A stretch of 64,000 nucleotides of DNA, from assembly GCF_900142575.1 (NCBI RefSeq), contig NZ_FRBI01000002.1:124001-188000 (forward strand), in the 5' to 3' direction. Positions within the stretch are counted from its first letter, which is position 1, and each line of letters starts with the position of its first letter. The notes below the pieces were generated by a model. The model had not been told where the DNA came from. It did not search any database and worked only from the letters and a program-made list of their open reading frames with translations. Shown piece by piece: positions 2,512-58,500 of the stretch. This DNA is from Actinacidiphila paucisporea (lineage in GTDB: Bacteria; Actinomycetota; Actinomycetes; Streptomycetales; Streptomycetaceae). The position numbers and the translations under genes are program-made.

Positions 2512-3879
2512 GTGACCCCGCCCCCCGCATCCGACCCGTCCGGCCCCTGCCGAGCCCCCGCCCCCGGGCCGCACGCGAGCCCCGCGCCCGGACCGGGCGC
2601 GGACGCGGACGCCGCGTCGGGCGCGAGCCCGGCACCCGCGCCGGACGCGGGCGCCGTGTCGGGAGCGAGCCCCGTGCCCCCGCCGGGTCCGCGTACCGGA
2701 CCGGGCGAGGGTGCGCTCTCAGCCGGTCCGGCCCCCGCGGGACGCGCGGGCGCGGCGTGGCCGGCCGGGGCCCGCGCGGGCGAGCACCCCGTTCCGCACC
2801 CCGCGCAGGGGCCCGGCGCGAACCTGCCCGCCCTGCGCAGCCACAACGCCGCGCTCGTCCTCGGGCTGCTGCGCGACGCCGCCACCGCCGGCAGCGGCGG
2901 GATCAGCCGGCTCGAACTGGCCGAGCGGACCGGGCTCACACCGCAGGCGGTCAGCAAGATCACCGCGCGGCTGCGGGCGGACGGGCTGCTGGAGGACGCC
3001 GGACGGCTCGCGTCGACCGGCGGGAAGCCGCGCACGGAGCTGCGGCTCGCGGCCGGTGCGCGGTGCGCGGTGGGGGCGCACCTCGACGGCGAGAGCCTGA
3101 CGGCCGTGGTGGCCGACCTCGCAGGGCGTACGGTCGCGGAGCACGCCGCGCCGCTCGACCTCGGGCTGCCGGTCGGGACGGGACTGGCCGCGATGGTGCG
3201 CGAGCTGCGTACGGCCGTCGGGCTGGCGCCGGCGCCGGTGCTCGGGGTGGGAGTGGGGATACGCGGGCCGCTGGACCACCGCACCGGCACCCTGCACGAG
3301 GTCACCGGCTTCCCGCACTGGTCGGGGTGCCCGCTGCGTACCGAACTGGCGCGCGGGCTCGGCCTCCCGGTGGCGGTCGACAAGAACACCAACGCGGCGG
3401 CGCTGTCGATCCTGGCCGAGCCGCAAGCCGGCCCGGGAGCCGGCTCGTTCGGGTATCTGCACCTCGGTACGGGCCTGGGCGCCGCCCTCGTGCTGGGCGG
3501 CCGGCCGCACCGCGGCGGGCGGGCGGGGGCGGGGGAGTTCGGGCACCAGGTGGTGCAACTCGACGGGCCGCCCTGCAAGTGCGGCAAGCGCGGCTGCCTG
3601 GAGGCGCTGTGCCTGGCGGCGGTCGCAGGCGGCGACACCGAGGGCGCGGCCCGCCTGCTGGGCGTCGGCGCCGCGAACCTCGTCGCGCTGCTGGACATCG
3701 ACCGGGTCGTCCTCGGCGGCCGTACGGTCCTCGCCGCCCCCGGCGTCTTCCTGGCCGGCGTCGCCGCGGCCCTCGGCCCCACCCCCGTCACCCTCGCCGC
3801 GGCCGGCTCCCGCGCGGTGGCCGAGGGCGCCGCCCTGCTCGCGCTGGCCCCCCTCTTCGCCCGCGCCTCCCTGAGCTGA
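2512..3879 (+). CDS. ROK-family transcriptional regulator
   Basis: A 455-residue sugar-responsive repressor. After an unusual Pro/Ala/Gly-rich, low-complexity N-terminal tail of about 100 residues comes a winged helix-turn-helix (LRSHNAALVLGLLR through LAERTGLTPQAVSKITARLRADGLL). The ROK kinase-like domain follows, with YLHLGTGLGAALVLGG and the ROK zinc motif CKCGKRGCLEALC preceded by GEFGHQ. The GTG at 2512 is chosen because an earlier in-frame ATG (2455) would overlap the divergent gene and the operator. The disordered tail makes the true start uncertain, and a start further inside the tail is possible. It is divergent from the oxidoreductase operon and likely autoregulated through the palindrome at 2464-2486. 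Confidence 0.88.
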   Translation: MTPPPASDPSGPCRAPAPGPHASPAPGPGADADAASGASPAPAPDAGAVSGASPVPPPGPRTGPGEGALSAGPAPAGRAGAAWPAGARAGEHPVPHPAQGPGANLPALRSHNAALVLGLLRDAATAGSGGISRLELAERTGLTPQAVSKITARLRADGLLEDAGRLASTGGKPRTELRLAAGARCAVGAHLDGESLTAVVADLAGRTVAEHAAPLDLGLPVGTGLAAMVRELRTAVGLAPAPVLGVGVGIRGPLDHRTGTLHEVTGFPHWSGCPLRTELARGLGLPVAVDKNTNAAALSILAEPQAGPGAGSFGYLHLGTGLGAALVLGGRPHRGGRAGAGEFGHQVVQLDGPPCKCGKRGCLEALCLAAVAGGDTEGAARLLGVGAANLVALLDIDRVVLGGRTVLAAPGVFLAGVAAALGPTPVTLAAAGSRAVAEGAALLALAPLFARASLS

Positions 3880-49945: not shown

Positions 49946-49959
49946 TGGGAGCGCTCCCA
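49946..49959. promoter_or_regulatory. CebR operator, cebE (perfect)
   Basis: TGGGAGCGCTCCCA, the exact 14-base CebR consensus palindrome. It lies 77 bases before the cebE start and just downstream of the cebE promoter -10, a position that blocks initiation or elongation. Confidence 0.92.
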
Positions 49960-49975: not shown

Positions 49976-50004
49976 CATTCACGCCTGGGAGGGGTCAGTG
50001 TCAA
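49976..50004 (-). promoter_or_regulatory. Promoter of the cebEFG-bglC operon
   Basis: On the minus strand -35 TTGACA (49999-50004) and -10 TGAATG (49976-49981), spacing 17 bases. The CebR box follows about 17 bases downstream. Confidence 0.65.
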
Positions 50005-50093
50005 GATGTGAAGTCCATTTCGTTGCCGGAACGTGTCCGGAGCTGACTCTTGATTACTTCTTGAACGGAAGCTCCCGCCTGGGGCTTGTAGTG

Positions 50094-50107
50094 TGGGAGC
50101 GCTCTCA
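50094..50107. promoter_or_regulatory. CebR operator, cebR (one mismatch)
   Basis: TGGGAGCGCTCTCA, one base from the consensus, 64 bases before the cebR start. A TTGAAC -35-like box lies at 50061-50066. It predicts autorepression. Confidence 0.85.
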
Positions 50108-50171
50108 AGAACCGCTCCTGCGGGGAAGGACCGGGCGCTAAGGTGGCGCGAAATGAGTACAGGAGGCGGCA

Positions 50172-51212
50172 GTGGCCATGAACGGGCGGCACAGCGGACG
50201 TCCCACCCTTGAGGAGGTGGCGCTGCGCGCCGGAGTCGGGCGGGGCACGGTCTCCCGGGTGATCAACGGATCACCGCGGGTGAGCGACCGCGCGAAGGCC
50301 GCCGTCGAGGCCGCCATCGCCGAACTGGGGTACGTCCCCAACCGGGCGGCCCGGGCGCTGGCGGGCAACCGCACGGACGCCATCGCGCTGGTCATCCCGG
50401 AACCGGAGACCCGGCTGTTCGCCGAGCCGTACTTCTCCGACATCATCCGCGGCATCGGCGCGGAGCTGGCCGACACCGACATGCAGCTGCTGCTGACGCT
50501 GATCCGCACCCCCAAGGAGCGGGCGCGCTTCGCGCAGTACCTGGCAGCGCACCGGGTCGACGGGGTGCTGCTGGTCTCCGTGCACGAGGACGACCCGCTG
50601 CCCGACCTGCTGGAGCAGCTGGAGATGCCGGCGGTGCTCAACGGCCGGCGCAGCGATCTGGAGTCGGTCTCCTATGTCGACGCCGACAACGTCGGCGGCG
50701 CGCGGGCCGCGGTCGCCCACCTGATCGCCCGCGGGCGGCGGCAGGTCGCCACCATCACCGGGCCGCCGGACATGTACGTGGCGCGCAGCCGGCTCGACGG
50801 CTACCGGCAGGCCGTCGAGGCCGCGGCCGGCGGCCTGGACTCCGGCTTCGACACCGCGCTGGTCGCCCGCGGCGACTTCACCGAGGAGGGCGGCCGGCGG
50901 GCGATGCGCGAGCTGCTGGTCCGCCGCCCCGGCATCGACGCGGTCTTCGCCGCCTCCGACGTGATGGCCGCCGGCGCCAGGGCGGTGCTCCGCGAGACCG
51001 GCCGCCGGGTGCCCGACGACGTCGCGCTGGTCGGCTTCGAGGACTCGGCCATCGCCCGCCACATGGACCCGGCCCTCACCAGCGTCCGCCAGCCCACCGA
51101 GGAGATGGGCCGCACCATGGCCCGGGTCCTGCTGGAGGAGATCGCCGAGCGCGAGTCCGTACGCCGGCATGTGGTGCTGGCCACGGAACTGGTCCAGCGC
51201 GACTCGGTCTGA
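50172..51212 (+). CDS. cebR: LacI-family repressor CebR
   Basis: A 346-residue LacI/GalR repressor. The helix-turn-helix and hinge occupy about 9-60 (TLEEVALRAGVGRGTVSRVINGSPRVSDRAKAAVEAAIAELGYVPNRAARALAG). The periplasmic-binding-like effector domain follows (IALVIPEPETRLFAEPYF, VDADNVGGARAAVAHLIARGRRQVATITG, VFAASDVMAAGA, LVGFEDSAIARHMDPALTSVRQP). CebR binds TGGGAGCGCTCCCA sites and is released by cellobiose/cellotriose. It is divergent from cebE. GTG at 50172 is preferred over ATG at 50178 because AGGAGG ends 5 bases before it. Confidence 0.95.
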   Translation: MAMNGRHSGRPTLEEVALRAGVGRGTVSRVINGSPRVSDRAKAAVEAAIAELGYVPNRAARALAGNRTDAIALVIPEPETRLFAEPYFSDIIRGIGAELADTDMQLLLTLIRTPKERARFAQYLAAHRVDGVLLVSVHEDDPLPDLLEQLEMPAVLNGRRSDLESVSYVDADNVGGARAAVAHLIARGRRQVATITGPPDMYVARSRLDGYRQAVEAAAGGLDSGFDTALVARGDFTEEGGRRAMRELLVRRPGIDAVFAASDVMAAGARAVLRETGRRVPDDVALVGFEDSAIARHMDPALTSVRQPTEEMGRTMARVLLEEIAERESVRRHVVLATELVQRDSV

Positions 51213-51218
51213 GGGCCC

Positions 51219-51251
51219 GCGCGGCCTCCCAGGCCCCGCGTGAGGCCGCGC
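51219..51251 (+). terminator. cebR terminator hairpin
   Basis: GCGCGGCCTC (51219-51228) pairs perfectly with GAGGCCGCGC (51242-51251), 7 bases after the cebR stop. Confidence 0.65.
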
Positions 51252-51334
51252 GGCGGCCCCGCCGCCCCCGGACGGCGCAGGGGAGGCCCCCGGCGCCGCA
51301 GGGGCCCGCCACGGCCCTTCCGCACCCCGCTGAA

Positions 51335-51348
51335 TGGGAGCGCTCCCG
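51335..51348. promoter_or_regulatory. CebR-like operator in a convergent gap (one mismatch)
   Basis: TGGGAGCGCTCCCG, 13 of 14 consensus bases. It is 123 bases after cebR and over 220 bases from the 3' end of the convergent GH64 gene, so it has no obvious promoter to control. Confidence 0.75.
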
Positions 51349-51575
51349 TGCCCGCGGCACGATTCCCCGAACGCCCGCACCGCGGGAACGCGCGGCGCGG
51401 ACGGCGGACACCGGGCGGGCACGCCGTATACGCGCCGGGTCCGGGACGGCACGCCGCCGGGGGCGGGAGCCGGCACACGTGGGGCGTGTACCGGACCCGC
51501 CCCCGGCGGTTGTGGGGGGATGTGGGGGGTTCCGGGGAACGTCGGGGTGACCGCGGGAGGCTTGCCGGCGAGGGC

Positions 51576-53393
51576 CTAGAAGCCGACCGCGACCTCCATC
51601 CACTGGGGGTTCTGCTGGGAGGCGTAGGCGGCCTGGCCGGCGACGTCGTCGTACGGGAAGCCGTAGGCGAGGTGGTTGATGCCGTGGTCGTGCCAGTACT
51701 TGGCGTACCAGTTGGCCGGGTCGCCGCCGGTGTAGAACTTGGTCGGATCCTGCTGCTGGGCCGCCGGCAGGTTCGCGGTGTGCCGGTTGAGCGCCGCGCA
51801 CTTCGCGGCGTCGGCGCCCATGGTGCCGGCGCAGCCGAAGATGTTCGACGTGGGCTCGTTCACGCCGACCGACTGGGCGTACGCCGTGTAGTAGTTGGCG
51901 TTGACGCCGCCCGCGCGGAAGCTCGGGTCGCTGCCCGGGGCGATGATCCGGTAGGGCGCCTGGGTCTGCGCGAGCACCTTGAACTGCTGCGGCACCGCGT
52001 TCTGGAAGGACTGGAAGACCTGGTCGCGGGACATGGTGAACAGGTCCTGGCTGTCACCGAGCTGGATGTCCTCGCCGCTGTGCGAGTGCAGCCTGATGGC
52101 CAGCGGCAGCGCCCACGCGTCCACGCGGGTGGTGTTGCCGTTGAAGACCGCCGCGCCGATGGTGAACTCGATGAAGTCGTTGTACTGGCTGGTCGGCGAG
52201 CCGACGTAGAAGTACATCCGGCCCGAGGAGTTCGCCGGCATGTCGAAGTACGGCTGGTCGGCGATGGAGTGCACCTGGCCGTTGAAGCTCCAGTAGACCT
52301 GGCTGTCCGGGTAGGCGCCGTTGGTCCGGTTGAGGATCTTCAGTTCCATCACGTTGTGCGCGGCCGGGATGTCGTCCGTGGTGCCCCAGAAGGAGTCGGG
52401 CGGCGTCGTCGTGCCGCCGGTGGTCCCGCCGGTGGTCGATCCGCCGCCGTTGGTGTGCACCTGGAACTCCCACAGGGAGTCGCCGTAGGCGGTGGCGCGG
52501 GCGGTGGCGTTGACCCGGATGTAGCGGCCGGTGCCGGTCACGTTCAGGTTCTGCACGCCACCGGTGGAGGTGGTGGTGGAGTAGATCGTGGTCCAGGTGC
52601 CTGACGGGTTGTCGGTGACCTGGATCTGGTAGGCGGTCGCGTAGGCCGCCTCCCAGTTCAGGCCGACGCCGCAGACCTGCTGCGAGGAGCCGAGGTCGAC
52701 CTGGAGCCACTGCGGGTCGGAGAAGGTGCTCGACCAGCGGGTGCCGGTGTTGCCGTCGACGGCCGCCGAGGCGGGGGTGCCGGCGTTCTCCGCGGACGAG
52801 GCGGTGGCCGTCTTGCCCTGGGCGGTGTTCGCGGTGCCGCACGCCGAGGGGCTGGTCGCGCCGCCGGCGCCGTAGACCTGGAACTCCCACAGCGAGTAGC
52901 CGTACTGGGTGGCCCGGACGGTCCCGTTGACCCGCACGTAGCGGCCGGAACCGTTTACGGCCAGGTTCTGCACGCCGCCGGTGCCGGTGGTGGTGGAGTA
53001 GACGTTCGTCCAGGTCGTGCCGTTGTCGGACGTCTGGACGGTGAAGGCCTTGGCGTACGCGGCCTCCCAGTTGAGCGTCACCTGGTTGATGGCCTGGCTG
53101 CTGCCGAGGTCGACCTGGATCCACTGGGGGTCGGCGGCCGCGCTGGACCAGCGGGTGCCGGTGTTGCCGTCGACGGCCGCGGAGGCGGGCGTGCCGGCGT
53201 TCTCGGTCGACGACGCGGTGGCCGGCTTGCCCTGCGAGAGCAGGGTGCCCGCGGCGCGCGCCGGTGACTGCGAGGTCACCACGAGGACGAGCCCCGCCAG
53301 CAGGGCGAGCAGGGCGGTGAGCACCAGATACGGCTGGCGTCCGCGGTGGCGCCCTGGCCGTCGGCGCACCAGTAGGGAAGTGCTGCCTGACAT
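51576..53393 (-). CDS. Secreted discoidin-discoidin-GH64 beta-1,3-glucanase
   Basis: A 605-residue exported enzyme. A signal segment (about 20-48) is followed by two F5/8 type C (discoidin, CBM32-like) domains (about 49-178 and 185-313; both contain TASS.ENAGTPASAAVDGNTGTRWSS and DPQW.QVDLGSSQ). A Gly/Thr linker leads to the C-terminal GH64/thaumatin-like catalytic domain, with VMELKILNRTNGAYPDSQVYWSFNGQVHSI, FDMPANSSGRMYFYVGS and WALPLAIRLHSHSGEDIQ. GH64 enzymes release laminaripentaose from beta-1,3-glucan (callose, fungal wall). The two discoidin domains are near-identical in places, pointing to recent duplication. Its promoter carries a CebR-type palindrome, so it may be co-induced with cellulases. 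Confidence 0.9.
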   Translation of the reverse strand: MSGSTSLLVRRRPGRHRGRQPYLVLTALLALLAGLVLVVTSQSPARAAGTLLSQGKPATASSTENAGTPASAAVDGNTGTRWSSAAADPQWIQVDLGSSQAINQVTLNWEAAYAKAFTVQTSDNGTTWTNVYSTTTGTGGVQNLAVNGSGRYVRVNGTVRATQYGYSLWEFQVYGAGGATSPSACGTANTAQGKTATASSAENAGTPASAAVDGNTGTRWSSTFSDPQWLQVDLGSSQQVCGVGLNWEAAYATAYQIQVTDNPSGTWTTIYSTTTSTGGVQNLNVTGTGRYIRVNATARATAYGDSLWEFQVHTNGGGSTTGGTTGGTTTPPDSFWGTTDDIPAAHNVMELKILNRTNGAYPDSQVYWSFNGQVHSIADQPYFDMPANSSGRMYFYVGSPTSQYNDFIEFTIGAAVFNGNTTRVDAWALPLAIRLHSHSGEDIQLGDSQDLFTMSRDQVFQSFQNAVPQQFKVLAQTQAPYRIIAPGSDPSFRAGGVNANYYTAYAQSVGVNEPTSNIFGCAGTMGADAAKCAALNRHTANLPAAQQQDPTKFYTGGDPANWYAKYWHDHGINHLAYGFPYDDVAGQAAYASQQNPQWMEVAVGF

Positions 53394-53444
53394 GTGTTCT
53401 CCTCAACCGGGTGGGGGTCCGTGACGGAGGCCACCAGAGCGCGG

Positions 53445-53458
53445 TGAGAGCGCTCTCT
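53445..53458. promoter_or_regulatory. CebR-type operator, GH64 gene
   Basis: TGAGAGCGCTCTCT: the core GAGAGCGCTCTC is a perfect palindrome but both arms carry A/T in place of G/C of the CebR consensus, so 11 of 14 bases match. It lies 52 bases before the GH64 start and downstream of a good promoter. It could bind CebR weakly or a paralogous LacI protein. Confidence 0.7.
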
Positions 53459-53469
53459 TGGCGAGGTGA

Positions 53470-53498
53470 TGTTTACAAGGCGCGTACATCCGCGTCAA
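53470..53498 (-). promoter_or_regulatory. Promoter of the GH64 glucanase gene
   Basis: Minus strand: -35 TTGACG (53493-53498), 17-base spacer, -10 TAAACA (53470-53475), in an AT-richer patch. The operator follows directly. Confidence 0.6.
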
Positions 53499-53656
53499 TA
53501 AGTTGTTCAATAATGGCCAGTTGAGACTTCGCGCGACTACGAGACTCGAACGGACGCGCTCACGGCCGACGCCGGCTCAGCCCCTGCTCAGACGGCTGAT
53601 CGGGCGCGGTGGAGCCCCTGTTCGGCATCGGCTGCCCGTCCGGCGGACATGAGGGA

Positions 53657-55328: not shown

Positions 55329-55342
55329 TGGACGCGCTCCCA
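55329..55342. promoter_or_regulatory. CebR operator, GH5 cellulase (two mismatches)
   Basis: TGGACGCGCTCCCA, 12 of 14 consensus bases, 53 bases before the GH5 start codon. One half-site (CGCTCCCA) is perfect. Confidence 0.75.
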
Positions 55343-55493: not shown

Positions 55494-55507
55494 TGGGAGC
55501 GCTCCCA
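55494..55507. promoter_or_regulatory. CebR operator, GH48 cellulase (perfect)
   Basis: TGGGAGCGCTCCCA, the exact consensus, covering the expected transcription start 63 bases before the GH48 ATG. Confidence 0.92.
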
Positions 55508-55569: not shown

Positions 55570-58500
55570 ATGTCCGGAGGAAGACCGATCAGAACGCGGA
55601 CCAGGCGACTGCTGACCGCGCTGACCGCCGCGCTCGCCCTGCCGCTCGGCCTGACCATGGCCACCGGCAGCGGTGTCGCGCACGCGGCCGGCCTGCAGTG
55701 CAGCGTCGACTACACGACCAATGACTGGGGTTCCGGTTTCACCGCGAACACCAAGATCACCAACCTCGGCACCGCCGCGATCGACGGCTGGACACTGACG
55801 TACTCCTACGCCGGCAACCAGACACTGCAGAGCGGCTGGAACGGCACCTGGTCGCAGTCCGGCAAGGCCGTCACTGTCAAGTCGCTGGACTGGAACAAGA
55901 CAATCGCGCCCAGCGCGAACGTCACCGCGAGTGCCAACTTCAACTACAGCGGCACCAATGCCGCGCCGACCAGTTTCACCGTGAACGGCACGGTCTGCGG
56001 GGGCGCGCACCAGCCGCCGCTTCCGGTGCTCACCAGCCCGTCGGCCGGTGCGACCTTCAGTGCGGGCGCCACCATCCCGCTGGCCGCGACCGCGGTCGCC
56101 GCGGACTCGGCGACCATCACCAAGGTCGAGTTCTACAGCGACACCACGCTGCTGGGCACCGACACCACCGCGCCCTACTCGGTCAACTGGGCCTCGGTGC
56201 CGGCCGGTGACTACTCGCTCTACGCCAAGGCCTACGACAGCCTCGGCGCCTCCGCGGAGTCCACCCCGGTGGGCGTGCACGTCGCGACCGGCCCGGCGAT
56301 CGTCGCCTCGCCGACGACCGTGTCCGTCCAGCAGGGCAAGACCGGCACCTTCGGCGTGAAGCTGTCCAGCGCCCCCGCGGCGAACGTGACGGTCGCCGTG
56401 GCGCGCACCGCGGGCAACAGCTCGCTGAGCGTCCAGTCCGGGGCCAGCCTCACCTTCACCCCGGCGAACTGGTCGACCGCGCAGAACGTCACCGTCGCGG
56501 CCGCGGCCACCGGTACGGGCTCGGCGACCTTCTCGGCGACCGCGACCGGCTACAGCACGGCGGCCGTCACGGTCAACGAGATCAGCGCGACCAGCGGCGC
56601 CTACGCCGCGCGGTTCCTGTCGCTCTACGGGAAGATCACCGACCCGGCCAGCGGCTACTTCTCGCCCCAGGGTGTTCCCTACCACTCGGTCGAGACGCTG
56701 ATCGTCGAGGCGCCGGACTACGGTCACGAGACCACGTCCGAGGCGTACTCGTACATGATCTGGCTGCAGGCGATGTACGGCCAGGTCAGCGGCGACTGGA
56801 CCAAGTTCAACGCGTCGTGGGCGACCATGGAGCAGTACATGATCCCCACCCACGCGGACCAGCCGACGAACAGCTTCTACAACCCCAACTCGCCGGCCAC
56901 CTACGCCCCCGAGCACCCGCTGCCGTCCGACTACCCCTCGCAGCTGGACAGCAGCGTCAAGTCCGGTGTCGACCCGATCGCGGGCGAGCTGAAGTCGGCC
57001 TACGGCACGGACGACATCTACGGCATGCACTGGCTGCAAGATGTGGACAACATCTACGGCTTCGGTGACACGCCCGGTGGCGGCTGCGAGCTCGGCCCGA
57101 CGGCCAAGGGCCCGTCGTACATCAACACCTTCCAGCGCGGTGAGCAGGAGTCGGTGTGGGAGACCGTGCCGCAGCCGACCTGCGACGCGTTCAAGTACGG
57201 CGGCAAGAACGGCTACCTCGACCTGTTCACCGGGGACTCGGCCTACTCGCAGCAGTGGAAGTACACCGACGCACCCGACGCCGACGCGCGCGCGATCCAG
57301 GCCGCCTACTGGGCGGACACCTGGGCCAAGGCGCAGGGCAAGGGCGCCGACGTCGCGGCCACCGTCGCCAAGGCCGGCAAGATGGGTGACTACCTGCGGT
57401 ACTCGTTCTTCGACAAGTACTTCAAGAAGATCGGCAACTGCACCAGCCCGACCACCTGCCCGGCAGGCACCGGCAAGGACAGCGAGCACTACCTGCTGTC
57501 CTGGTACTACGCCTGGGGCGGCTCGTCCGGCTCCGGCGGCGGCTGGGCCTGGCGCATCGGTGACGGCGCCTCGCACTTCGGCTACCAGAACCCGCTGGCG
57601 GCCTACGCGCTGACCACCGACCCGGCCATGGCGCCGAAGTCGACCACCGGCAAGCAGGACTGGACCACCAGCCTGGGCCGGCAGCTGGAGTTCTACCAGT
57701 GGCTGCAGTCCAACGAGGGTGCCATCGCCGGTGGCGCCACCAACAGCTGGAACGGCTCCTACGGCACGCCCCCGGCCGGCACGCCCACCTTCTACGGGAT
57801 GGCGTACGACTGGGAGCCCGTCTACCACGACCCGCCGTCGAACCAGTGGTTCGGCATGCAGGCCTGGTCGATGGAGCGGGTCGCGGAGTACTACCAGCAG
57901 ACCGGTGACGCCAAGGCCAAGGCCATCCTCGACAAGTGGGTGACCTGGGCGATCTCCCAGACCACCATCAACGCGGACGGCACCTTCAAGATCCCGTCCG
58001 ACCTCCAGTGGACCGGCGCGCCGGACACCTGGAACGCGAGCAGCCCGGGCAAGAACACCGGCCTGCACGTGACGGTCTCGGCGTACGGCAACGACCTGGG
58101 CGTCGCGGCGGCCTACGCCAAGACGCTGTCCTACTACGCCGCCAAGTCCGGCAACGCCGCGGCCAAGACCACCGCCAAGGCACTGCTCGACGGCATGTGG
58201 GGCAATTACCAGGACCCGCTGGGCATCGCCACCCCCGAGACGCGGAAGGACTTCAGCCGGTTCAACGACCCGGTCTACGTGCCGTCCAGCTTCTCCGGCA
58301 CGATGCCCAACGGTGACAAGATCAACTCGAGTTCCACCTTCATCGAGCTGCGGTCCTTCTACAAGAACGACCCCAACTGGCCGAAGGTGCAGGCGTACCT
58401 CAACGGCGGCAACGCGCCGAGCTTCACCTATCACCGCTTCTGGGCCCAGGCGGACATCGCGATGGCGATGGGTGCCTACGGCCTGCTCTTCGGCGAGTGA
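55570..58500 (+). CDS. Secreted CBM2-Ig-like-GH48 cellulase (reducing-end cellobiohydrolase)
   Basis: A 976-residue exported processive cellulase. Signal peptide 1-37. A CBM2 module (about 38-142; NDWGSGFTANTKITNLGTAAIDGWTLTY, WNGTWSQSGKAVTVKSLDWN) is followed by a Big_7-type Ig-like domain (about 155-240; VEFYSDTTLLGTDTTAPYSVNW) and a second Ser/Thr-rich beta domain (about 245-340; TVSVQQGKTGTFGVKLSSAP). The GH48 catalytic barrel starts YAARFLSLYGKITDPASGYFSPQGVPYHSVETLIVEAPDYGHETTSEA and includes DDIYGMHWLQDVDNIYGFG and YHRFWAQADIAMAMGAYG. GH48 enzymes release cellobiose from reducing ends and work with GH6 and GH5 enzymes. The ATG has GAGGAGG 9 bases upstream. CebR-controlled promoter. Confidence 0.96.
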   Translation: MSGGRPIRTRTRRLLTALTAALALPLGLTMATGSGVAHAAGLQCSVDYTTNDWGSGFTANTKITNLGTAAIDGWTLTYSYAGNQTLQSGWNGTWSQSGKAVTVKSLDWNKTIAPSANVTASANFNYSGTNAAPTSFTVNGTVCGGAHQPPLPVLTSPSAGATFSAGATIPLAATAVAADSATITKVEFYSDTTLLGTDTTAPYSVNWASVPAGDYSLYAKAYDSLGASAESTPVGVHVATGPAIVASPTTVSVQQGKTGTFGVKLSSAPAANVTVAVARTAGNSSLSVQSGASLTFTPANWSTAQNVTVAAAATGTGSATFSATATGYSTAAVTVNEISATSGAYAARFLSLYGKITDPASGYFSPQGVPYHSVETLIVEAPDYGHETTSEAYSYMIWLQAMYGQVSGDWTKFNASWATMEQYMIPTHADQPTNSFYNPNSPATYAPEHPLPSDYPSQLDSSVKSGVDPIAGELKSAYGTDDIYGMHWLQDVDNIYGFGDTPGGGCELGPTAKGPSYINTFQRGEQESVWETVPQPTCDAFKYGGKNGYLDLFTGDSAYSQQWKYTDAPDADARAIQAAYWADTWAKAQGKGADVAATVAKAGKMGDYLRYSFFDKYFKKIGNCTSPTTCPAGTGKDSEHYLLSWYYAWGGSSGSGGGWAWRIGDGASHFGYQNPLAAYALTTDPAMAPKSTTGKQDWTTSLGRQLEFYQWLQSNEGAIAGGATNSWNGSYGTPPAGTPTFYGMAYDWEPVYHDPPSNQWFGMQAWSMERVAEYYQQTGDAKAKAILDKWVTWAISQTTINADGTFKIPSDLQWTGAPDTWNASSPGKNTGLHVTVSAYGNDLGVAAAYAKTLSYYAAKSGNAAAKTTAKALLDGMWGNYQDPLGIATPETRKDFSRFNDPVYVPSSFSGTMPNGDKINSSSTFIELRSFYKNDPNWPKVQAYLNGGNAPSFTYHRFWAQADIAMAMGAYGLLFGE

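Follow-up and report, generated by a model that had tools for sequence, protein, structure and literature searches.

The systems closest to the one treated here have been described in Streptomyces. The operator consensus published for CebR of this genus is TGGGAGCGCTCCCA (PMC4898821), and two CebR-binding sites are reported within the txt cluster of S. scabiei (PMC8914351). The SigR motifs of Streptomyces are given as GGAAT-N18-GTT and also as GGGAA-N18,20-CGTT (PMC2375139). Our literature searches found no paper joining Actinacidiphila and CebR, and among the matches listed for orphan sites and gene loss, judged by titles and the starts of abstracts, there was no comparable case.

We analysed a stretch of 64,000 nt of Actinacidiphila paucisporea (NZ_FRBI01000002.1, positions 124,001-188,000), hereafter the window, and all coordinates are counted within it. 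In this stretch, a CebR box lies between cebR and a GH64 gene (Table 1). Because the former is on the + strand and the latter on the - strand, the space that holds the box is a gap between two 3' ends. Close relatives carry a small gene at this place that is deleted in the window, and most likely, therefore, the site is a switch that has outlived its gene and has nothing left to control. We put the probability that the box is an operator left behind by a deleted gene at about 0.8.

Table 1 Features of the cebR-GH64 region, in window coordinates
Feature	Position	Strand	Description
Perfect CebR box	49946-49959		Upstream of the cebE-like gene
Second CebR box	50094-50107		TGGGAGCGCTCTCA; between the cebE-like gene and cebR
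cebR	50172-51212	+	LacI-family repressor, 346 aa
Convergent gap	51213-51575		363 nt; cebR 3' end to GH64 3' end
Orphan CebR box	51335-51348		TGGGAGCGCTCCCG; 13/14 to consensus TGGGAGCGCTCCCA; same 14-mer in G031, G011 and G013
Decayed leader with the predicted promoter of the lost gene	51349-51420	+	Between the box and the former start codon
Lost-gene remnant	51421-51438	+	ACG CCG TAT ACG CGC CGG (TPYTRR) versus MPYTRR in G031; rest deleted
Probable deletion junction	51431-51437		7-base overlap in the two-piece match to G031
Strong hairpin	51450-51514		-57.2 kcal/mol, z -6.1
GH64 gene	51576-53393	-	Beta-1,3-glucanase with F5/8-type-C domains

The box and its genomic setting

We called CebR operators at up to one mismatch to TGGGAGCGCTCCCA, and TGGGAGCGCTCCCG falls within this limit. 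The first-pass annotation had described the site as a 13/14 match and a 14-base palindrome, placed between converging genes with no protein gene start nearby and unlikely to arise by chance. The single mismatch was verified. The palindrome is perfect across the inner 12 bases (GGGAGCGCTCCC) and does not extend to the outer pair, T..G, and the description stands in that reduced form. The placement was also borne out, as the 3' ends of cebR and of the GH64 gene flank the box, and a crude codon-usage gene finder called zero genes in 51213-51575 and no start facing the box.

Regarding chance, we counted 27 sites at up to one mismatch in the genome (8.16 Mb) against two for a reversed control pattern. 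At the rate of this control, arithmetic gives an expectation of about 9e-5 sites in 363 nt, in agreement with the earlier judgement. At up to two mismatches the excess is small (78 sites versus 54 for the control), and at up to three mismatches there is no real excess in the window, with 13 sites found, 8.3 expected and 9 of 100 shuffles reaching 13. The significance of the box comes from the excess in the class of zero to one mismatch and from conservation in relatives. The box is real.

The other boxes of the genome indicate what such a site usually accompanies. Stretches of 6 kb were taken around 22 of the 27 sites; the remaining five are those at 49946, 50094, 51335 and 55494 of the window and one located 86 bases from a fetched site. 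Boxes were assigned to genes with the starts called by the crude codon-usage gene finder. By these calls, 23 of the 27 boxes are intergenic and upstream of a start, two are inside genes (L128 and L131) and another is just inside a called start (L132), and the box at 51335 is the sole intergenic one without a facing gene start. Among the other 26 boxes, 24 lie at or upstream of a gene start as called by this finder. The nearest facing start, again as called, is 3 to 151 nt away for the 17 fetched perfect boxes, and the box-to-ATG distance of the small gene in relatives (71-72 nt) is usual for this genome.

Ten target proteins were scanned, one per locus at 10 of the 22 fetched loci, and all ten had a CBM2 cellulose-binding domain, suggesting that this class of box marks cellulose-related genes in this genome. 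Together with the position of 24 of the 26 other boxes at or upstream of starts, this suggests that the boxes mark cellulose-related promoters. The genome therefore both encodes a CebR-like repressor and carries cellulose-related genes behind the same box.

Some further sites were observed. A two-mismatch box (55329-55342) and a perfect box (55494-55507) precede a + strand gene called at 55570. A CebR-like palindrome with three mismatches, TGAGAGCGCTCTCT, lies at 53445-53458 upstream of the GH64 gene. The boxes of L128 and L131, at position 3001 of each locus, have one mismatch each and are located within genes called by the crude finder.

A small gene in related genomes and its remains in the window

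A match to cebR at E ≤1e-140 was found in 34 of 35 genomes of the genus, and the CebR protein is 98-99% identical across the five nearest genomes. We surveyed for boxes the 30 genus genomes with loci at hand, extending the search some 1500 nt beyond the cebR match. Two boxes precede cebR in 29 of them, and one in G029. Downstream, a box with at most one mismatch occurs in four of the 30 (the window, G031, G011 and G013). G006 displays a decayed two-mismatch box, CGGGAGCGCTCCTA, and no small gene. There is no box at up to two mismatches downstream of cebR in 25 of the 30 genomes, and none in G026 and G015, the next relatives out. The first-pass annotation had made the case for the box depend in part on its conservation in relatives: it is indeed kept there, but within the near clade only. 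When the first 30 of 80 named loci were surveyed up to 3 kb past cebR, boxes were also seen in L012, L019, L020, L026, L029 and L030 at other distances (at least 515 nt); the one of L020 (Streptomyces sp. RB17) is a perfect CebR box, 515 nt beyond the point where the cebR match ends.

Alignment of the flanks indicates where the conserved unit begins. When the window or its sister G031 was compared with G013 or G011, the 50 nt upstream of the box did not align (z -0.8 to 0.2), while the box was identical (14/14) and the 50 nt downstream aligned (z 5.5 to 17.9), which, for these genomes, places the beginning of the conserved unit at the box. The upstream 50 nt of G013 and G011 gave z 1.6 against each other, and between the window and G031 both flanks align (z 10.6 and 10.2).

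In G031, G011 (L001, A. cocklensis) and G013 (L002, A. bryophytorum), the identical 14-mer stands 85-86 nt before the ATG of an unannotated + strand ORF of 86 aa, which is followed by a terminator hairpin as in the window. The box is thus upstream of a gene start in these three genomes and not in the window. The records L001 and L002, named as two species, both bear DSM 42138, and their sequences differ. An intact homologue between cebR and the GH64 gene is found in four genomes (G031, G011, G013 and G020), the three other cebR-side copies being 76-79% identical to that of G031.

The small protein displays, by eye, one clear N-terminal hydrophobic segment and is probably membrane-bound or secreted. 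Scans of its L001 copy against Pfam (E ≤1) and NCBIfam (E ≤0.1) gave no match. A profile search of 394 family genomes recovered the gene in 10 of them at E below 1e-14; 11 further marginal matches (2.7e-4 to 9.8e-4) were left out of the count. These ten homologues comprise the four beside cebR and six at other places (G017, G022, G026, G032, G061 and G024). Members of the family, such as L082:1772-2032, L001:7193-7453, L002:7178-7438 and L085:1179-1457, are 86-92 aa long. Third codon positions vary most in 20 of the 21 pairs formed by seven of the ten homologues which, together with the profile matches in 10 of 394 genomes, suggests that the ORF is real. Amino-acid-changing codons outnumber silent ones in nine of the 21 pairs, and the constraint on the protein therefore seems modest. 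The G032 copy (L146), in which codon 6 is an in-frame TAG and the promoter spacer is shorter by one base, is probably a pseudogene.

The copies elsewhere had no common theme among their neighbours (10 neighbours at five of the six loci); two of the 10 chosen neighbours are TetR regulators, at different loci. A tree of the ten homologues, with G024, the sixth copy elsewhere, as outgroup, unites the other five copies elsewhere, G026 included (92/96, no starred branch), and gives no firm order for the four cebR-side copies.

All ten homologues share a SigR-like motif, GGAA[C/T]-N17-19-CGTT, upstream of the ATG, and the window lacks it. In nine of them the motif reads GGAAC-N18-CGTT and starts at -35 of the ATG; in G032 the spacer is N17 and the start is at -34. 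The motif ends 9-10 nt upstream of, or close to, the ATG in all ten, a proximity suggesting that the transcript would be nearly leaderless. The window has kept GGAAC at 51385-51389, and the CGTT that forms the -10 of the relatives reads CACC at 51409-51412. The three box-bearing copies (L139, L140 and L141) have in their leader an inverted repeat, CGCCCGCACC...GGTGCGGGCG in G031, that overlaps the -35. Its folding gave z -3.4 to -4.8 in G031, G011 and G013 and is weaker in the window (z -2.2); its left arm is absent, by eye, in G020. The hairpin that follows the remnant in the window is probably a transcription terminator. It is also found in seven other aligned genomes, and is diverged in G015, for which the other strand was aligned.

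The window retains six codons of the gene, with ACG (51421) in place of the ATG of the relatives. According to the two-piece match to G031, 252 bases are missing from the window, and the gap as a whole is 240 bases shorter (363 versus 603 in G031). The exact junction is uncertain because the global alignment placed the gap elsewhere than the two-piece match did. From box to start codon, 76 columns could be aligned and, with G013 and G011 as reference for polarity, 14 changes are specific to the window, one is specific to G031 and one is ambiguous. A two-sided binomial on 14 versus 1 gives about 0.001 by arithmetic in which adjacent changes are counted singly. The box itself displays no change in 14 positions on the window's branch. 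Upstream of it, 8 of 49 aligned positions differ between the window and G031, against 13 of 231 fourfold sites of cebR, suggesting that the whole gap evolves fast.

The cebR tree joins the window and G031 as sisters (96/87). They belong to a clade of five genomes (97/96), in which the four besides the window all carry the small gene at the cebR-GH64 place. The remnant codons and this nesting among gene bearers show that the gene was present and then lost on the window's branch: there is a homologue in relatives, its remains in the window are truncated, and the pattern is one of loss rather than of lack of gain. A lost gene was among the options raised by the first-pass annotation, and it is the one that gained substance, with a box-led gene at the same place in three relatives and a truncated start still readable in the window. 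At the level of aligned sequences, this comparison establishes the homologous unit in relatives, the deletion with its accompanying decay, and the branch of the loss.

In the sister species, the + strand unit consists of the CebR box, a leader, the SigR-like promoter, the start codon, the 86-aa ORF and, after the stop, the terminator hairpin. In the window's species a deletion, perhaps at a 7-base repeat, has taken all but the first six codons; the start codon and the -10 of the promoter have also mutated, leaving a box without a gene start to control. CebR presumably binds the predicted box, would have repressed the small gene until cello-oligosaccharide appeared, and at present would have no target there. 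Since the box is located upstream of the SigR-like promoter and not over it, simple occlusion fails to explain repression. CebR may perhaps have repressed through a second promoter at the box; inspection of the three relatives by eye revealed no shared promoter overlapping the box.

Competing explanations

The link between box and gene is not universal. At the cebR-GH64 place G020 has the gene and its promoter and lacks a box. For the six homologues elsewhere, a search allowing up to three mismatches found none within 700 nt, and G006 has a decayed box alone. Taken together, these cases suggest that the box might be a local addition on the cebR side, or might precede the gene. The latter alternative, a box older than the gene with the small gene and its promoter landing downstream of it afterwards, is possible if tentative, and it is compatible with a later loss in the window. 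It derives from G006, the first branch of the six-genome clade, where a decayed box occurs without the gene, and from the homologues elsewhere, which have in common the promoter and the ORF and not the box, so that these two look like a moving unit. The leader of the window also fails to align with that of G006 (z 0.1). However, the sequence downstream in G006 does resemble that of G031, G011 and G013 (z 4.8, 4.6 and 3.2), as expected after a loss, and the boxless state of G026 and G015 also speaks against an older box.

That the box still works, being bound by CebR and acting on read-through from cebR, on antisense transcription into cebR or the GH64 gene, or by titration of the repressor, is unlikely. 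Residual function is conceivable because the box is intact beside a decayed leader: its 14 bases are unchanged relative to three relatives although 14 of the 76 adjacent columns changed. At the leader rate, arithmetic gives about a 6% chance of no change in 14 bases, a weak figure because neighbouring changes may be single events. The unusual placement also has a precedent among the CebR sites reported for the S. scabiei txt cluster (PMC8914351). Against a working box, 25 of the 30 genomes surveyed lack any box past cebR, and in G006, where the gene is likewise absent, the box has decayed. An Rfam scan of 50000-53600 at E ≤1 also returned nothing. The small RNA or antisense transcript that the first-pass annotation had considered accordingly found no support, with Rfam empty and the SigR-like promoter broken in the window. 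A scan of 51150-51650 for sigma-70-like promoters and T-tailed terminators found none, and says little because shuffles also gave 0. No match to 51150-51620 was found in a plasmid collection at E ≤1e-5. We consider it quite improbable that the orphan operator has been retained for a separate role, such as titrating the repressor or controlling a non-coding transcript that spans the two 3' ends, and that the lost gene belonged to an undescribed small-protein family governed jointly by CebR, through cellulose sensing, and by a SigR-like stress sigma factor.

The first-pass annotation had also raised a distal or looping site. As an auxiliary operator, the box would act together with the two located 1.2-1.4 kb away, between cebE and cebR, whose presence is what favours this idea. 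The C-terminal tail of LacI is its tetramerising part. CebR (346 aa) matches positions 7-330 of a 358-position LacI-subfamily model and is without the part beyond position 330. Moreover, the upstream boxes occur in 29 of 30 genomes and the gap box (at most one mismatch) in four of 30. Since CebR has no such tail and 25 of 30 genomes are boxless downstream of cebR, looping is very unlikely.

A chance match in GC-rich DNA, for which the small genomic excess at two mismatches and the lack of a clear excess at three in the window would speak, is hardly credible in view of the 27 sites versus 2 at up to one mismatch and of the exact 14-mer in three relatives, the upstream flanks of two of these failing to align.

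Comparison with described systems

An operator left behind by a deleted gene remains our preferred explanation, and the case is most likely specific without being unusual in type: a small gene that the sister species keep was deleted, and its operator became an orphan. What was an odd regulatory site can thereby be read as the loss of a gene on a defined branch of a tree. The case also calls for caution, as predictions of the CebR regulon may include operators without targets. It further brings out a small protein family without Pfam or NCBIfam match which, in three species, has a CebR box ahead of it and cebR as a neighbour. Sister genomes that have or lack the gene and the box provide a natural comparison of operator decay.

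Compared with the CebR operators of Streptomyces, the box is alike in sequence (13/14) and in adjoining cebR, and other sites of the genome precede CBM2-bearing proteins. It differs in that no gene start faces it and in that it lies between two 3' ends. The promoters of the small-gene homologues, known here from sequence, resemble the SigR promoters of Streptomyces in spacing and in CGTT; they differ in having GGAAC and not GGAAT, and in the window the -10 is lost. Remnants of operators whose genes were deleted are familiar as a general notion. The locus agrees with this notion in its truncated ORF, its dead start codon and -10, and its kept terminator, and differs from it in that the operator is intact while the rest has decayed.
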